Positions 27,011 to 55,544 of a DNA stretch of 64,000 bases are shown piece by piece. This stretch comes from Chytridium lagenaria (Eukaryota; Chytridiomycota; Chytridiomycetes; Chytridiales; Chytridiaceae). The notes under the pieces were generated by a model. The model saw only the letters and a program-made list of their open reading frames with translations, was not told where the DNA came from and did not search any database. Both the position numbers and the translations under genes were made by a program. The stretch covers positions 310,001 through 374,000 of the forward strand of contig JAHLKC010000001.1 in NCBI GenBank assembly GCA_025449115.1, read 5' to 3'. Positions within the stretch are counted from its first letter, which is position 1, and each line of letters starts with the position of its first letter.

Positions 27011-28681
27011 ATGAAAAGGCTGGGAAAATAAAAATAAAATAAATAGTTTTTTGTATTTCACAGAGTGAGTGTCTTTTTGTTCTTTTTTATTATTTTATGT
27101 TTTTATTTTTATTTTTTTTGTCGACCCCTTAAATTTATTTATTAATTATTATTTTCTATTATTTATTATTTATTTATTTATTTATTTATTTTATTAATTA
27201 ATATTATTTATTTTCTTTCCAAAAACCACAATTATTATTATTTCATTATTTATTAAAATGTTGGTGATGATGATGATGATGATGATGTTGATGATGTTGA
27301 TGATGATTTGTTGTTGATCCAAAATGATTTGTTCTCTTGAATAAAAATCTTGTTTCGGTACAATGTTACACCAAATCAGTTAAATTTTATTGACTTTTTT
27401 ATTATTTATTATGACTTGTGTAACTCTTATATATTAATATTGACGCCACTGTGTTTTTGTTTTTAATTCATTATTTTTATAAATATATTTAATAATAATA
27501 TTTGATATGTAAAACTGCCCAGTTGAAACACTTGATTCTTGAACGACGCCATAAACAAAGCTGCCTGCCCAGTTGAAACTTGAACTCCAAGTGACACTGA
27601 CAGGGAGGATGATGATTGAGGAGGAGAAGGGAGGAAGGGAGGGAGGGAGGGACAAAGAGGACCCTCATTTTGTTATTTAATTTACATACTATTAATGAAT
27701 GAATAGGAAGGTTTTTCTTATTTATTTATTAGTATTTAATTGTTTTATTACTTATTTATTCATTTAACATTTTTAATCTGTTTATTTATATATAAGCCTC
27801 CTCTTCTGGTCCTCCTACTTTCGTACTACATCCTTGTGCAAAGGGCTGGCTGACAATGTCAGCAGGCTGGAAGGGAGATGGTGTCTAATGAACTAATAAT
27901 AATATTATTTATTTATTACTTGGGACTTGGGAGACGATTTCAATCAATAATATTCAACCCAAAAAGGATGGCTGGGTCGTGTATGCTATACTATGTATAG
28001 GTACCTACTATATACCTACCTGGGTGATGGGGGCGGATCATGGGCATAGCATGTAACCACGGATCATCGGAAGCCTGCTGGCTCAAAGGTTTGAGACCAT
28101 CCTTCATTCATTTATTTATTGGTGATGGGGTCGGATCAACTGTAATAAAGAGTCGTGGCTGTTATGAATACGGCTTGTTATTTTCACTTGGTAGTGTTGA
28201 AAGGCGTGATTGATCATTGATATGCTCTTAATAGTCTTATGAGGCCTGTCTCTTGAATATGTAAAAGATAAATATATTGATGTAAAAAAACCAACCATGT
28301 CGAGGTCCTAAAATATTTTTGTAGGCTGGATTGGCGCATCCACAAAATTGAGGCGTAGTCTTATTAGGTGTGCACTCAAGCAGGCAGCTCCATTAAATCG
28401 TAATTATGTCTGCTGAAAGGATGAGGTGAGCTATACACTAGGATTACGTGGTCTTACACCACTATGCTTGTCGTTCACATAGCAGAATGTAGGTCATGAT
28501 TATTTTAGAAACATAGAGACCAGGAAGTCACTAAAGACATTCACCGAAAGGAGTAATGATATAGGAGGGGGAAAGGGGTGTGCTTGGGTTGTAAGAAGAA
28601 CCAAACGTGACGGTGAACGTAACGTCGGTATTTTTCTTATAAAAAAGGCCTATCTCTCTCATGAAAAAGCTTTCGGATTAG
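27011..28681. other. AT-rich, repeat-rich intergenic region
   Basis: About 1.7 kb without a supported gene. It holds TTTA/ATTA-type low complexity (27040-27250 and 27660-27790), an ATG/TTG trinucleotide microsatellite near 27262-27310, two copies of CTGCCCAGTTGAAAC (near 27507 and 27567), and a short perfect hairpin GCTGACA-A-TGTCAGC near 27850. The phrase ggtgatggggNcggatca occurs twice (about 28024 and 28120). It looks like decayed repeat sequence. Confidence 0.5.
27262..27310. repeat. Trinucleotide microsatellite (ATG/TTG)n
   Basis: Run of gatgatgatgatgatgatg with ttg interruptions in AT-rich non-coding DNA. Confidence 0.75.
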
Positions 28682-29638
28682 TTTAGAGCCAAACTGATCA
28701 TGAGTTGTCGAGTATGGAGTGTTTGGAGAAGAGTCTGAGCTTGTATCGCTCCATCCTGGTGCTCAATGGCAGACCATTGATCTCCCTCTTGATCATCGAC
28801 CGACGGGTGGCCCAGCTGCTTGAAAGTTGCTGTGGATCCCCGTCTTTCGCAATCAAATATACTTTACAATCCCTGTTTTCATTCTGTGTTTCCCTAGTGA
28901 TTCTTTCTTTGGGTTGAGATGCTCGTTGACTTGGCCTTGTTTGGAGAGAGAGGTGCTATTTTTGTTTATGTTTGTTTTTCAGAGTTATCGCATCGCATAT
29001 CCAAAGTAAATATATATATATACATACAGCAGGGTTAGGGTGGTTTTTTGAGAGTTATTGTGGGTTTTCGAGATTTTTAATGTCTTTGAATTATGTATAT
29101 TGCAGACCATCACCGCCAGAACCATGCTTGTCTAAGACTACAGCTAGGGTATCAAAGAAACACTGTAAACTTGATACAAAGATCAAACAAATCACGTCTC
29201 TTTCCAATCTTCTTAATGTTACGAATGTCAAGGTCAGATAATGTCAGCTGCTGCGCTTCTCGGCCAAGGTGGCGGATGCTGTTTGCAATAATAACGGTGC
29301 TGGAATATATAAGTAAACAGATTGTGTGTGCAGGAAGAGTTAGCAAGAACCCAATATTCGTACGGCAAGTGAACATCAAAAGACGGGAGGGGAGGGAGAT
29401 AGCAAAACACTCGATAATAAAACCAAACCCGTGGTGCGATGCACGTATTCAAAAAGACAAAAACGGACAAAAAGAGGGCACCTACCCAAACATCGTCGAC
29501 GTCGCCGCCGTCCCCTTCCCACCTCTGGTCCGATACACTCCCACAACTTGAATCCTATCTCCCGGTTTCGCCGAATCCACCAAATCATCTTCAAGTATCA
29601 CATCAATCTATCCCAGCGAATTGATACATACTGAAAAG

Positions 29639-30246
29639 TAGGCCTGTCCCCCGACAACCGACATCCGCAGATGCCATCTGCGGATAACAGGTCGGATACG
29701 GATGTCGGATTTGAGGGGTCGGTTATCCGTTATCCGACGGATACTATAATTAATAATAATAATAATAAAATAATAGAAGATAAATATAAATGAACTTACA
29801 AATGTTATATAGTCAAAATTATTTTGCCAGAGACCAAAACCCACCAGACCGATCTTCTTGTATCTGGTACTGATTATAGTGATATTCGGTTCATTATCAT
29901 CACAACTGAAGGTAAGTGATAATGGGACTCTTGGTAGAGGCTGTCTGTTACTAACTTTTCGTTTTTTTTTAAGACTCTTTACCGTGCAGCACAGGCTCGG
30001 GGTTTAGTCGCTCCCTAATGGATTGGTCTGTTTATTCAGTTATGCTCACACTTAATTTAACTCATCTCCATAGGTTCAACTCTTAATAGGACTGTCGGAG
30101 ATGATATGATTGGGCGAAAACTCGTGACTTTTAAATATCACGTGATATCCGATAAGTCGGATTCGGATAACGGTTTTCAAAAAAGGTCGGATACGGATAA
30201 CGGATTTTGCCATTATCCGTATCCGAAGGCTCGGGTGACAGGCCTA
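29639..30246 (+). mobile_element. Non-autonomous hAT-like element with 8-bp target duplication
   Basis: The 608-bp insert is flanked by direct repeats CTGAAAAG (29631-29638 and 30247-30254). Its ends are near-perfect terminal inverted repeats, TAGGCCTGTCCCCCGA and, on the other strand, TAGGCCTGTCACCCGA. Eight-bp target duplication and a TAGG-type terminus are typical of the hAT superfamily. The homologous repeat at 47 kb has a single CTGAAAAG (47213-47220) at the same place, which is the empty site. Subterminal words related to GGTCGGATACGGATAACGGAT recur at both ends, as in hAT elements that bind transposase there. No transposase is encoded, so mobilisation would need a full-length relative. 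Confidence 0.85.
29663..29685. repeat. Perfect hairpin inside the hAT-like element
   Basis: ATCCGCAGATG, one spacer base, then its exact reverse complement CATCTGCGGAT, 24 bp inside the left terminus. Possibly part of the transposase-binding subterminal region. Confidence 0.7.
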
Positions 30247-30327
30247 CTGAAAAGGTATGAACAATTTTCATCTTTATTTCCTGTATTATAGTATAAATAC
30301 GTCATGGCCCTAACCCATCTAATTCTT

Positions 30328-30364
30328 TTGTTCGTTCGTTCGTTCGTTCGTTCGTTCGTTTGTT
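30328..30364 (+). repeat. (TTCG)n microsatellite in repeat copy A
   Basis: Six to seven GTTC units. The corresponding tract is shorter in copy B (about 47120) and nearly absent in the 55.3-kb copy, so it varies between copies. Confidence 0.8.
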
Positions 30365-30474
30365 GAAACGATTCAACGCATGCCATTCCAAAACTGAAAC
30401 TGTATATACCGCGTGTATTTATTTATTCAACTTGTTGTTTGTTGTGTTAATATTCAAATTTGAAAAATAAAGTA

Positions 30475-32341
30475 CTAATTTATCCAAACCGTCAAACCAT
30501 TCTTTGCAGTACATTGTCTCTGACGGTTCCATCTTGGAGACGCCAACCGCATTTGTGGGGTAACTTTTCCATTCGCCTTGATTCTCGCCGTCTTTACACG
30601 CTCTGTACTCGCTGCTCTGTCAGGTCCTGAACCCACCGGGGATCCTAGTCCTTCCTACGGTATTAATGGGCCAGCATGCGTTGCATCTGAAGCATGCCTT
30701 TGCTGCACGCCTCGCTTCTGGAATTGCCCATGGCCTTCTGTTTCTGGACCCAACCCACTGTTCACATCCCCCTCAGCCATTGCTCCTTGTGTTTTATTTG
30801 CCGACAGCGTGTTTCTTGTTATGAGTAAGACGGGTTTCTCTATTCTTTTCTTTGTGTATATAAATGTATATATTGCTTCTCAAAATAAATTGGTTGAAGT
30901 ATACTGCGTTGCCTATGATTACGGCAGTACTTTAAAAAAATTGCTAGAGCTGAAGATTACACTGCTGATGCTCAAAGCAGATACCGATATTCAAGCTTTA
31001 ATATATGTCTAACCCTTATATGTCTAACCGTACGTTGACAGGACGGTTGACCTAATAATGTTTTTATGTAAGTGCCTTTTGTCCTTTTCACGAGATTCAA
31101 AGGCTTGAGACGTGACTTGGCGTTGAAGGTTCTGTAACTCTAGTGATGCAGTCATGAATTATGATGCCATACTTTCAAGATGTACGTCCTGTATTGTAAG
31201 TCTTTGCGTTCACCCCGTTTCTGAAATTCGCTCCGCAGGAAACGTCAAATTACATTACATGTTAGCCTGTTCCATCGTTATGTTGGTAATAAAGTATTGA
31301 TTTACTATTGCCTTCTTTCTGTGAACCTCATTCTTAGATGAACGCTTAGATTTTTGCTTACATGTAACGTCTATATTTAGATGAGGTTTACCAGTACCCA
31401 ACAAGATATATGACTTACACACATCAAGATGGAGTGAAGGAACTAGTGGTAGTCAATAATTGAAAATTAAATGGGGTCACATTTTAATTATCTCAATCCG
31501 CAGCAAAAATTCTCGGATTAAGAGATCTGACGTTGCGGCGGCTATCAATAGTGCTGATCTTCAATCAATTGTAAGGAGAGCACAAGATAAGAACGGCCAG
31601 GCTTGTAAAAATTGCAATCCACCGCGAGCATTGCTCGCATGATATCATGATATGACCTCTTTAAAGTCACTAGATTAATCATCATTTCATTTTGGGGCAA
31701 AGAACGATGAAAAATGCTTCCCTAATATTATCCTTGTCCATATTTTATAAGGCACGGCATTTGATAAAAATTGTAAAAGAAAGTAATCGTGCTGGCTTAT
31801 TTGCCTTAGTAACATTCTTCTTGAAACATTCTACAACATACATGATGCATTCAGCCTGTGGGTTGTTGCTGCCGTTATAACTATTATTACTACGTTGAGT
31901 AACGTCAATCAAAGTAAAAGCGTTAGGGTTGTCGCCCTGAAGCGCTTGCGAGTCGCTGGATGATATGATGGATTTTGGCGTTCTGCAAAATCCAATAAAG
32001 ACCTGCTATTAAATTTAAAGTTGTATAATATTCATTTATCAATCGATCCTTTGACACAATATGGTATTTATAAAGAGAACTGAGTTGCGAACTTGCGTGG
32101 CATCTGGGGCATTGAGAAGCATTATTGCCGATGGCAGTCCTGCTTATTCACCCTTAACAATGCCCGGGTGAAAAACGTCACGGTGTGATTGAGAAAAAAA
32201 AGAAGTTGGGTCTTAAATATCAAAATAAAGTTTATAAACATGTATAAAACATACATAATAATATGCTCAACGCGACGCGTTTTTACTTTTTCCGTGTTAG
32301 GCATTTGAACAACATGTTCGTCATCAGAAACCACCTCGGGG
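30475..32341. other. Intergenic region with no supported gene
   Basis: About 1.9 kb. A reading frame at 30578-31012 begins with a hydrophobic stretch and has six clustered cysteines (EACLCCTPRFWNCPW), but it starts at a non-ATG codon and ends in AT-rich non-coding-like sequence. I do not call it a gene. Nothing else is recognised. Confidence 0.4.
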
Positions 32342-45425: not shown

Positions 45426-46912
45426 TCAAAAGTCCTCGTCAAGGCTGAAGCTACAATTTTTCATAAGAACCAAAGCCCAAAAGTAGCTAATTAAAAAAGG
45501 AAGAAAATGGGCCCACCTGAACTCCTGGTTTTTTGATTGAGTCGTCTGCATATTCTGCTCCATCCCTCCAGCCTTCTTCATATCCGTAGCTTCATTAGCA
45601 GACACCTCAGGATCCATCGCCATCTCATCAACCACAGTCCTCAGAAGCGCTTCAGCAGTCTCCTGTACAATCTTCTTCACATCATGGGTATGAGCAGAGA
45701 TGGTTCCGCTGCAAGTCGCCCCAAGTTCTTCAAGGACCGCCAGCTCAACCTCCACAGCAGCCATCACCCTCTCGCTCGCCATCTCCTCAGTGATTTTTTT
45801 GTTGATGTAGGAGAAAAGGACGACAAAAAATTCTGTGTAGATACGGGAGTCACCGAGGATGCGAGTAAGGCCTTGTACTGAACCAGGAAGGTATGGTTGG
45901 ACGGTTCCGGGGAGGCAGGTACCACCAATACGAAGGAGCAGATGGTAGCCGGACATGTTGAACAACGCGAGAGCAACTGTAAGAGAAAAGAGTCTTCGGG
46001 CAAACGGCTCTTGAGGATTCAGCACATATTTGGCAATCCACTCATTTCGTGTCTGAATGCAAGTAGCTACAGTCGAAGAAGAATGTTGTTAAAACCCCGA
46101 TAGAATTGGTTACAAAATTGAGAAAAGACTTAAAACCCGAAAATGCGGAGAAAGAAAACAAACATACATTCTTGAACTTTGACGGATACCGTGTTAATGT
46201 AGCTTGCGTCTTTCACGAGGAAATCAAGTAAGACGTTGAAAAATTCTTGATGGATGTTTCCCTGCATGATTTGGAATCCAAGAAAGCATCTGGCTTCGGG
46301 TGCCTAATAAAAATGCATGTTAAAAAAAAAGGTGTTGACGACTGAATAGAATGAAATAATTCGCATCACAACAAAAAAGATTGTTTGAAAGGCTAACCTG
46401 AATTTCATTAGATAATAGGTGAAGTAATCGATGTTGCTCGCCAAAATCGTTTGACACAAGAAAAGCTAGGAGAAATGAAACGGAGGCTCTATCCGCGTCG
46501 GGAATTAGGCTCCAGGCTGTTAGAATTTTCGTTAGCAGAGCAAAAAAGGCTGGAAGCGTTGCGGAAAACCTACCCTCAACATCATCAGCAAACTCCAGCT
46601 CCTCGGGACTCCAAAAGTTGGCCTCTGCATGCTTATAGCACATCCAGATCTAGTACATTTGATGATTAGAATCGATTGGTAGGCGTATGGTTCACTTTTT
46701 AACACGAGCATGAGGATAATGGGGCTCAAAGCCAATACTGTTTGCCGACATGTACAAACCTTGTGGTATTGAATAGGGAACAAGACAAAACGTTTGTTGT
46801 TGGGGACCAATAACTGCTCTTGCATATCATCGGGATGCTGCTGCAGATTGGGGTCAGCTGCGATGAGATTGGTGGAGTAGGAAGTATGAGGGGCATCCAT
46901 GGCGGACAACAT
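45426..46912 (-). CDS. Degenerate ribonucleotide reductase small subunit (R2-like, metal and radical site lost)
   Basis: Six exons join without any frame break to about 352 residues. R2 landmarks in order: LLVPNNKRFVLFPIQYHKIW, YKHAEANFWSPEELEFADD, WSLIPDADRASVSFLLAF, SNEIQAPEARCFLGFQIMQG, NIHQEFFNVLLDFLVKD, GDSRIYTEFFVVLFSYI, and the C-terminal tail FSLDEDF, which in R2 binds the large subunit. Aligned by eye to mouse/yeast R2, the radical tyrosine is Phe (HSEMY to HQEFF). Iron ligands are lost: D139 to E, E170 to G, E233 to A, E267 to S, H270 to Y (mouse numbering); only H173 is kept. The segment NPFDFMENISL near the end of R2 is missing. It therefore cannot hold a normal diiron-tyrosyl site and resembles yeast Rnr4 in concept. 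A helper or regulatory subunit is likely. Ancestry is fairly sure; function is inference. Confidence 0.8.
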
Positions 46913-47001
46913 ATTGAAGTGAGAGAGAGGGGAGCGACAGGGGAGAACCAAGTTTTTGAGTCCGTGAGTTTCGGACAGGATTTACAATTAAGCAAAAAAT
47001 G

Positions 47002-48110
<1,109 letters not shown>

Positions 48111-48495
48111 ATAATAAATAAATAAAAATAATTCAATATTTACCTTTAAAATAGTCATGTCAACCAAAAAAAAAAAAAAAAAGCATAACCGAAGTAGCAA
48201 AAAGATCGGCTATAACATAGATAGAAAAATAAGTTATGACGTGACTGACGACGAATGAATGAATGATTAAAGTTCTACTTGTGAGCTTGGCCATCTTCGA
48301 TCAGCGAGGTGTGTGGCAGGCAGCTATCGCTTTAGGCGAGAAGTAAGAAGATGACCTGGGCGGTGTTTTAGGCAGTTTTTTTTTTTCCAATGCTAGAGTC
48401 GATTTTGTAATCGAAAAACGTGATAAATAGCCTGAAAAACTCCCAGATTGACAAACAATGTTAACTACATAAAACGGATATAATAAAGCTATTAA

Positions 48496-48856: not shown

Positions 48857-48960
48857 TTACTTTATTTTTCAAATTTGAATATTAACACAACAAACAACAA
48901 GTTGAATAAATAAATACACGCGGTATATACAGTTTCAGTTTTGGAATGGCATGCGTTGAA
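48857..48960 (-). mobile_element. Dispersed repeat family, truncated copy C
   Basis: 104 bp of the common 3' end, from TTACTTTATTTTTCAAATTT to GGCATGCGTTGAA on the + strand. Sequence then changes directly into the Ser/Lys-rich reading frame, whose ATG at 48946 lies inside this copy. No target duplication is evident. Confidence 0.7.
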
Positions 48961-55052: not shown

Positions 55053-55544
55053 TGGGACTTTGTTCAATTTTTTTCTTTTTCGTCTTCATCTCACTTTTTC
55101 GGGTGGATAGGCATGGAGCTACTAAGGACAACGCTCGACTCATTATTTTTCACACAGTAAGCGTGTAATCCTTATTGTTAAAGGTGGATCTCCAAACTTT
55201 TTATAGTACATCACGCGTCCAAATCATCTTAGCCCTCTACATTCATATGATATGTACCTTGAAGAATTGCTGGATTCTTGCCGCGCTTACTTTATTTTTC
55301 AAATTTGAATATTAACACAACAAACAACAAGTTGAATAAATAAATAAATGCAGTATATACAGTTTCAGTTTTGGAATGGCATGCGTTGAATCGTTTTAAC
55401 AAACGAACAAAAGAATTAGATGGGTTAGGTCCATGAGGTATTTATACTATAATACAGGAATCTCTCTACTTATATACTCCACATATTGTAAAGGCGTCAT
55501 GATGGGCGCGGCATTCAAATTTTCTGTAGTAAAAATCATTGAGG
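55053..55544. other. Divergent promoter region between the Spa2-like and STRIP genes
   Basis: 490 bp between start codons, containing repeat copy D (55287-55460). Confidence 0.5.
55287..55460 (-). mobile_element. Dispersed repeat family, truncated copy D
   Basis: 174 bp of the common 3' end, from TTACTTTATTTTTCAAATTT to ACTATAATACAGGAA on +. The TTCG tract is almost gone. It breaks off 84 bp before the STRIP start codon. No target duplication is evident. Confidence 0.7.

Follow-up and report, generated by a model that had tools for sequence, protein, structure and literature searches.

We analysed a window of 64,000 nucleotides from the chytrid Chytridium lagenaria, that is, the whole stretch at positions 310,001 to 374,000 of contig JAHLKC010000001.1 (GenBank assembly GCA_025449115.1; coordinates below count from its first letter). 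The window contains an R2-like gene, related to the genes for the small subunit (R2) of ribonucleotide reductase (RNR). The gene lies on the minus strand at 46912-45426 and, read as a spliced frame, is made of six exons with GT/AG borders that encode 352 residues in an unbroken frame, as a preliminary description of this DNA had proposed. Its product is a member of the R2 superfamily: a profile search matched it to PF00268 (Ribonuc_red_sm) at 159 bits (E 1.7e-46), above the curated cut-off, and the fold search rows shown, 50 from Foldseek and 50 from VIA, were R2-type ribonucleotide reductase chains, which bears out the homology first suggested by eye. The protein also has the C-terminal tail FSLDEDF already pointed out in that description; this tail fits the docking type F-x-[LI]-x-x-[DE]-F and is predicted to bind the large subunit, R1. 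The deposited protein (P0001) starts four residues downstream of the start chosen earlier, MLSA, which fits ML[ST]A, the N-terminus of 14 of the 28 family relatives described below.

Active site of the R2-like protein

Residues were compared in an alignment with 36 hand-picked canonical R2s and are numbered as in yeast Rnr2, with mouse numbers in brackets. In yeast Rnr2 the iron ligands are D145, E176, H179, E239, E273 and H276 and the radical tyrosine is Y183, as given in passages of PMC3824934. At D145, E176, H179, E239, E273, H276 and Y183 the window protein carries D, G, H, L, S, Y and F: two of the six ligands (D145 and H179) are kept and four are lost, so that the six-ligand site of class Ia is incomplete. 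Two further class Ia residues are missing, the radical tyrosine Y183 (mouse 177), which is replaced by Phe138, and Y376, the C-terminal tyrosine of the radical path, whose column holds Thr. W108, D118 and D272 are retained. Judged by these residues, the window protein cannot form an iron-tyrosyl radical of its own.

The preliminary description had counted five of six ligands lost, with only mouse H173 left. The alignment agrees with its reading of Phe at the radical tyrosine, of Gly, Ser and Tyr at E176 (E170), E273 (E267) and H276 (H270), and of a remaining His at H179 (H173). At E239 (E233) it was right that the Glu is gone, but the residue is Leu and not Ala, one column off. The change of D139 to Glu, however, falls away: this ligand is the Asp of AASDGIVNEN (yeast D145) and is still Asp100 (codon 46446..46448, minus strand). 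Pairing of D139 with the Asp/Glu of the FWSPEELEF segment was ruled out, since yeast D145 is the Asp of AASDG. The caveat that the ligands might be present in a shifted register thus holds for D145 only, and four ligands, not five, are lost.

All six exons are on the minus strand. Exon 1 (46760..46912, start codon 46912-46910) encodes the N-tail and RFVLFPIQYHK, exon 2 (46574..46649) carries W64 (W108) and D74 (D118), and exon 3 (46398..46516) carries D100, the kept ligand D145. Exon 4 (46168..46303) encodes Q130 (position 175), G131 (lost ligand E176), H134 (kept ligand H179) and F138 (lost radical Y183), while L194 (lost E239), D234 (kept D272), S235 (lost E273) and Y238 (lost H276) lie in exon 5 (45517..46066). 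Exon 6 (45426..45450) encodes the end of the docking-type tail and the stop codon.

A PF00268 search of the C. lagenaria genome returned two loci, the R2-like gene and one on contig C137 that encodes a canonical R2 with all ligands (L006, G000:C137:24981-26138, minus strand; deposited as P0207); R1 is encoded on contig C17. The genome does not, then, lack a canonical R2, a lack that the preliminary description had named as evidence against its proposal, and an incomplete diiron site stands alongside a canonical R2 in one genome, as in the Rnr4 type. In the assembly the frame of the canonical gene is broken at three single bases, most simply by sequencing errors; model P0207 steps round these breaks. 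Two of five intron positions are common to the two genes in place and phase: one after QYH(K/E) in phase 0, at the end of exon 1, and one in phase 1 within the codon two before the Cys of TC/PC, at the end of exon 4. These matches show that the R2-like gene arose by DNA-level duplication of an intron-bearing R2. The family RNR_inhib (PF08591) had no match in the C. lagenaria genome, but it had none in any control genome either, so that this result is uninformative.

Upstream of the gene, a repeat of about 1.1 kb occupies 47001-48115 and has an inverted copy at 28677-30475 (93-97% identity). It holds a fragment of an MCM OB domain (47244-47324, plus strand; second copy at 29527-29607, minus strand), and comes to within about 90 bp of the R2-like start codon on the upstream side. 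Shorter pieces related to one end of this repeat, 88-100% identical, are found at 48858-48960, 55287-55460, 30372-30474 and 47002-47107. The promoter region of the R2-like gene thus contains a recent repeat, possibly a mobile element.

A family of R2-like proteins in chytrids

The preliminary description had taken the gene for a separate case in one fungus. Two protein searches instead placed it in a family of at least 28 related proteins across chytrids, of which 26 records carry 24 different chytrid names and the other two are environmental proteins without a name; one Joint Genome Institute (JGI) code among the names presumably stands for Homolaphlyctis. Twelve names were looked up and belong to the Chytridiales, Synchytriales, Rhizophlyctidales, Spizellomycetales, Rhizophydiales, Cladochytriales and Lobulomycetales, with Quaeritorhiza unplaced within the Chytridiomycetes. 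Fourteen members were the top of the first search and served as the profile, so that their high profile scores follow from the way the profile was built. With this profile another thirteen (P0115-P0127) reached 334 to 448 bits, above the best canonical R2 (313), and P0132, whose 310 bits fall among the canonical scores, was included since its ligands are missing by eye. Rows below 313 bits were read in part only (P0128-P0134, P0137, P0140, P0141), and more members may be hidden there. Among the 120 matches listed, a canonical R2 was also found for at least 12 of the 24 names. For blastoclads and several chytrids with a canonical R2, no paralogue was among the matches listed (90% clusters), which is not evidence of absence; Batrachochytrium and the Neocallimastigomycetes lay outside this presence/absence survey.

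The pattern of kept and lost residues is largely common to the family. W108, D118, H179 and D272 are each present in all 28 members, and E176, E273 and H276 are lost in all. E176 is replaced by Arg (10), Lys (10), Gln (3), Gly (2), Ser, Ala or Thr (1 each), so that the position of this bridging ligand is basic in 20 of 28; the commonest replacement of E273 is His (10/28), and H276 is Tyr in 24. E239 and Y183 are each lost in 27 of 28, Asp is found at D145 in 18, and Tyr occupies the Y376 column in none of the members (16 are gaps) against 36 of the 36 canonical proteins. Indeed, all 36 canonical rows carry the standard residue at every tabulated site. Position 175 has become Gln in 28/28 members, compared with Ile (31) or Met (5) in the canonical rows, and Gln175 may serve as a simple marker for spotting further members. 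Of the canonical columns, 171 are near-invariant; 31 of these hold in 25 or more of the 28 members, most of them at columns 76-118 and 161-181, and 17 columns are invariant over a 25-row alignment of the family. A docking-type tail is present in 23 members, the exceptions being P0010 and P0017 (both marked partial), P0116 (fused in its model), P0118 and P0120.

In Escherichia coli R2, W48, H118 and D237, which match W108, H179 and D272, form a hydrogen-bonded chain to the iron that belongs to the radical path. H179 therefore looks less like a leftover ligand than like part of a co-retained set.

The residues left in the cage might instead hold a single metal, with D145, H179 and a new His273 as a mononuclear 2-His-1-Asp site engaged in iron hand-over or another oxidation. 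These three residues do occur together in 8/28 members, and His is the commonest residue at 273. However, the cage of all eight also contains Arg or Lys at 176, a residue expected to repel a metal, Asp is at 145 in only 18 members, and C. lagenaria, with Ser at 273, has no third ligand. We consider such a metal site very improbable.

Three further features were observed in this set of proteins. A short motif of the type L-x-L-D-E-D-W-D-x-P lies in the N-tail ahead of the R2 core of ten of the 28 members (P0005, P0009, P0010, P0012, P0017, P0018, P0115, P0116, P0117 and P0120) and is absent from C. lagenaria; [DES][DENS]W before the core occurs in 0/34 canonical proteins, and the motif is possibly a binding motif. 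Column 136 of the canonical R2s is Arg in 15 of the 22 chytrid proteins, as in yeast Rnr2, and His in all of the 13 remaining non-chytrid rows, which may be a trace of coexistence with a beta' partner (the term for Rnr4, discussed below). Last, in the deposited model of P0116 (Chytridiales sp. JEL 0842) the R2-like protein is joined to a domain of methyltransferase type (PF13649, PF08241, PF08242), perhaps through a gene-model error.

Phylogeny and relation to other divergent R2s

The tree set contained 26 members, with P0017 and P0118 omitted as second records of species already present; its canonical rows also included Cytophagales, Novymonas, P0092, P0103 and Diadema, which are not among the 36 canonical rows of the ligand table. 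The 26 members form one side of a branch with support 100/99. Groups within the family broadly track the chytrid orders, except that Entophlyctis, filed under Chytridiales, sits with members from Rhizophydiales. All together, these proteins appear to be an ancient paralogue of R2 across chytrids. The stem of the family is long (2.37) and so are the end branches, and the trees flag a possible long-branch meeting of P0004 and P0005 with P0122 and P0132.

Such branches, and the loss of four of six ligands, would suit a decaying copy or pseudogene without selected function. We find this hardly credible given the intact six-exon frame in C. lagenaria, the 57% identity of its product to a Dinochytrium relative, the 17 invariant columns, the four residues invariant throughout the family and the conserved tail.

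The family resembles Saccharomyces cerevisiae Rnr4 (Y4, beta') in having an R2 fold with a partial diiron site alongside a canonical R2, in keeping W108, D118, D145 (in most members), D272 and the docking tail, and in carrying Tyr at H276. Both also place a basic residue at a bridging ligand, Arg at E273 in Rnr4 and Arg or Lys at E176 in the 20 family members mentioned above (not in C. lagenaria). What they lost is different: Rnr4 lost H179 (Tyr there), E273 and H276 and keeps E176, E239, Y183 and Y376, whereas the family lost E176, E239, E273, H276, Y183 and Y376 and keeps H179. With two of six ligands left against three in Rnr4, the window protein is the more degraded of the two, as had been proposed.

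The family and Rnr4 could nevertheless descend from one old fungal beta' that was retained in chytrids and Saccharomycotina and lost elsewhere. Both have altered E273, both have Tyr at H276 (24/28 in the family), and a joint clade withstood an approximately unbiased (AU) test (p 0.179 for 26 members and 0.167 for 8). However, both trees unite Rnr4 with yeast Rnr2 (100/98 with 26 members, 100/97 with 8), so that its position differs from that of the family, and the losses are complementary, H179 being gone from Rnr4 and present in 28/28 members. Because of these two points, the chytrid family likely originated separately from Rnr4, and we regard common descent as quite improbable. The tests likewise allowed a grouping of the family with chytrid and blastoclad canonical R2s: p was 0.0775 for the set of 26 members, and for the set of 8 the tree constrained to this grouping was better by 6.9 (p 0.64). 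The AU tests thus do not prove the exact duplication branch or the independence from Rnr4.

Other divergent R2s share fewer or different features. As described in passages of PMC3824934, apicomplexan R2_e2/PfR4 is likewise a long-branched second R2 clade in one lineage, with the tyrosine lost in many, the C-terminal Tyr missing and the tail kept. Assignment to that clade would rest on grouping with R2_e2 in a tree and on a Lys at position 240. In R2_e2, which we compared by description only, the iron ligands are reported to be retained apart from a few exceptions, whereas the chytrid family has lost them. Human p53R2 (RRM2B) is also a second R2 and is among the best fold matches of the window protein, but it forms its own iron-tyrosyl radical (passages of PMC3824934), which the window protein, judged by its residues, cannot do. 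In R2c (class Ic) and R2lox, too, the Tyr position is often Phe or another hydrophobic residue; these proteins, however, keep their metal ligands with Glu at 145 (passages of PMC3824934), in contrast to the window protein with Asp at 145 and without E176, E239, E273 and H276.

A putative beta' partner of the canonical R2

With moderate confidence, we read the R2-like protein as probably a radical-dead beta' of ancient origin, paired with the canonical R2 and docked on R1. The precedents are parts of the holoenzyme: Rnr4 contributes to Rnr2 cofactor assembly (passages of PMC11941123) and PfR4 binds PfR2 and R1 (passages of PMC3824934). The preliminary description had likewise suggested a metal-poor helper beside a true R2, one that may stabilise or dose R2 or compete for R1; such a helper stands as the best reading, although the ligand count in that description was off by one. 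As the sequences show, an intron-bearing fungal R2 was duplicated and the copy shed the diiron site, the radical Tyr and the tail Tyr of the radical path, while it retained the fold of R2, the W108 region, the set of W108, D272 and H179, and a tail of the docking type. In the mechanism that we propose, this beta' would pair with the radical-making canonical R2, keep it folded and able to take up iron, and offer R1 one more docking tail. The Arg or Lys that most relatives have at 176 may stand in for the charge of the iron no longer present next to D145. An acid is found at 145 in 15 of 17 rows with Arg/Lys176 and in two of eight without (Fisher p 0.0036; 25 rows, P0120 being dropped for a gap at 145), a pattern that would fit a salt bridge replacing iron and that we keep as a hint.

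Several points weigh against this proposal. The link between Arg/Lys176 and acid 145 rests on about three independent changes, so few that a phylogenetic sign test cannot reach 0.05, and C. lagenaria itself has Gly at 176. Irineochytrium, Rhizoclosmatium, Polyrhizophydium and Geranomyces, for example, have a canonical R2 but no paralogue among the matches listed, and the paralogue may not be universal in chytrids. The long branches could reflect weak constraint, and the docking tail, taken alone, would equally suit a competitor for R1. Such a competitor could act as a brake, its tail competing with the true R2 for R1 from a radical-dead homodimer or monomer, or the protein titrating R2 into dead dimers, and would lower deoxynucleoside triphosphate synthesis outside S phase. 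The tail in 23 of 28 members and the lack of any residues for a radical are in keeping with a brake; conservation, however, extends beyond the tail to the 31 near-invariant R2 columns, and the two metal-poor or tyrosine-poor R2s of eukaryotes that have been characterised, Rnr4 and PfR4, are reported to belong to the holoenzyme. We therefore think a brake unlikely.

A bolder version of the beta' proposal, which we put forward as a doubtful one, is that the RNR of chytrids works in general as a beta-beta' heterodimer, with a beta' that evolved apart from Rnr4 and PfR4. A buried Arg/Lys-Asp pair would have replaced the iron, and the W108-D272-H179 set, otherwise known from the radical path, would have persisted for as long as the chytrid crown has existed in a role other than radical transfer, for instance fastening beta' to R1 or deciding which of the two halves of the dimer fires.

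Among the papers listed on RNR in chytrids and early-diverging fungi (open-licence papers, titles and abstract openings), we found no description of such a chytrid subunit. Class I RNR is present in all early-diverging fungi analysed in PMC8085122, in passages that leave a second R2 unmentioned. A radical-dead beta' is known as a kind; its lineage, its spread and the pattern of losses appear new. The need of yeast for an iron-free R2 has long been puzzling, as it seemed peculiar to a single lineage. With chytrids as another lineage of fungi, in which a dead R2 has been kept across at least seven orders, a comparative set becomes available: features common to Rnr4 and the chytrid family (W108, D118, D145 in most, D272 and the tail) point to what a beta' needs, and those in which they differ (H179, E176 and E239) to what it can do without. 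Moreover, many genes of the family are annotated plainly as ribonucleotide reductase small subunit, so that counts of R2 genes in chytrids overstate the active ones.
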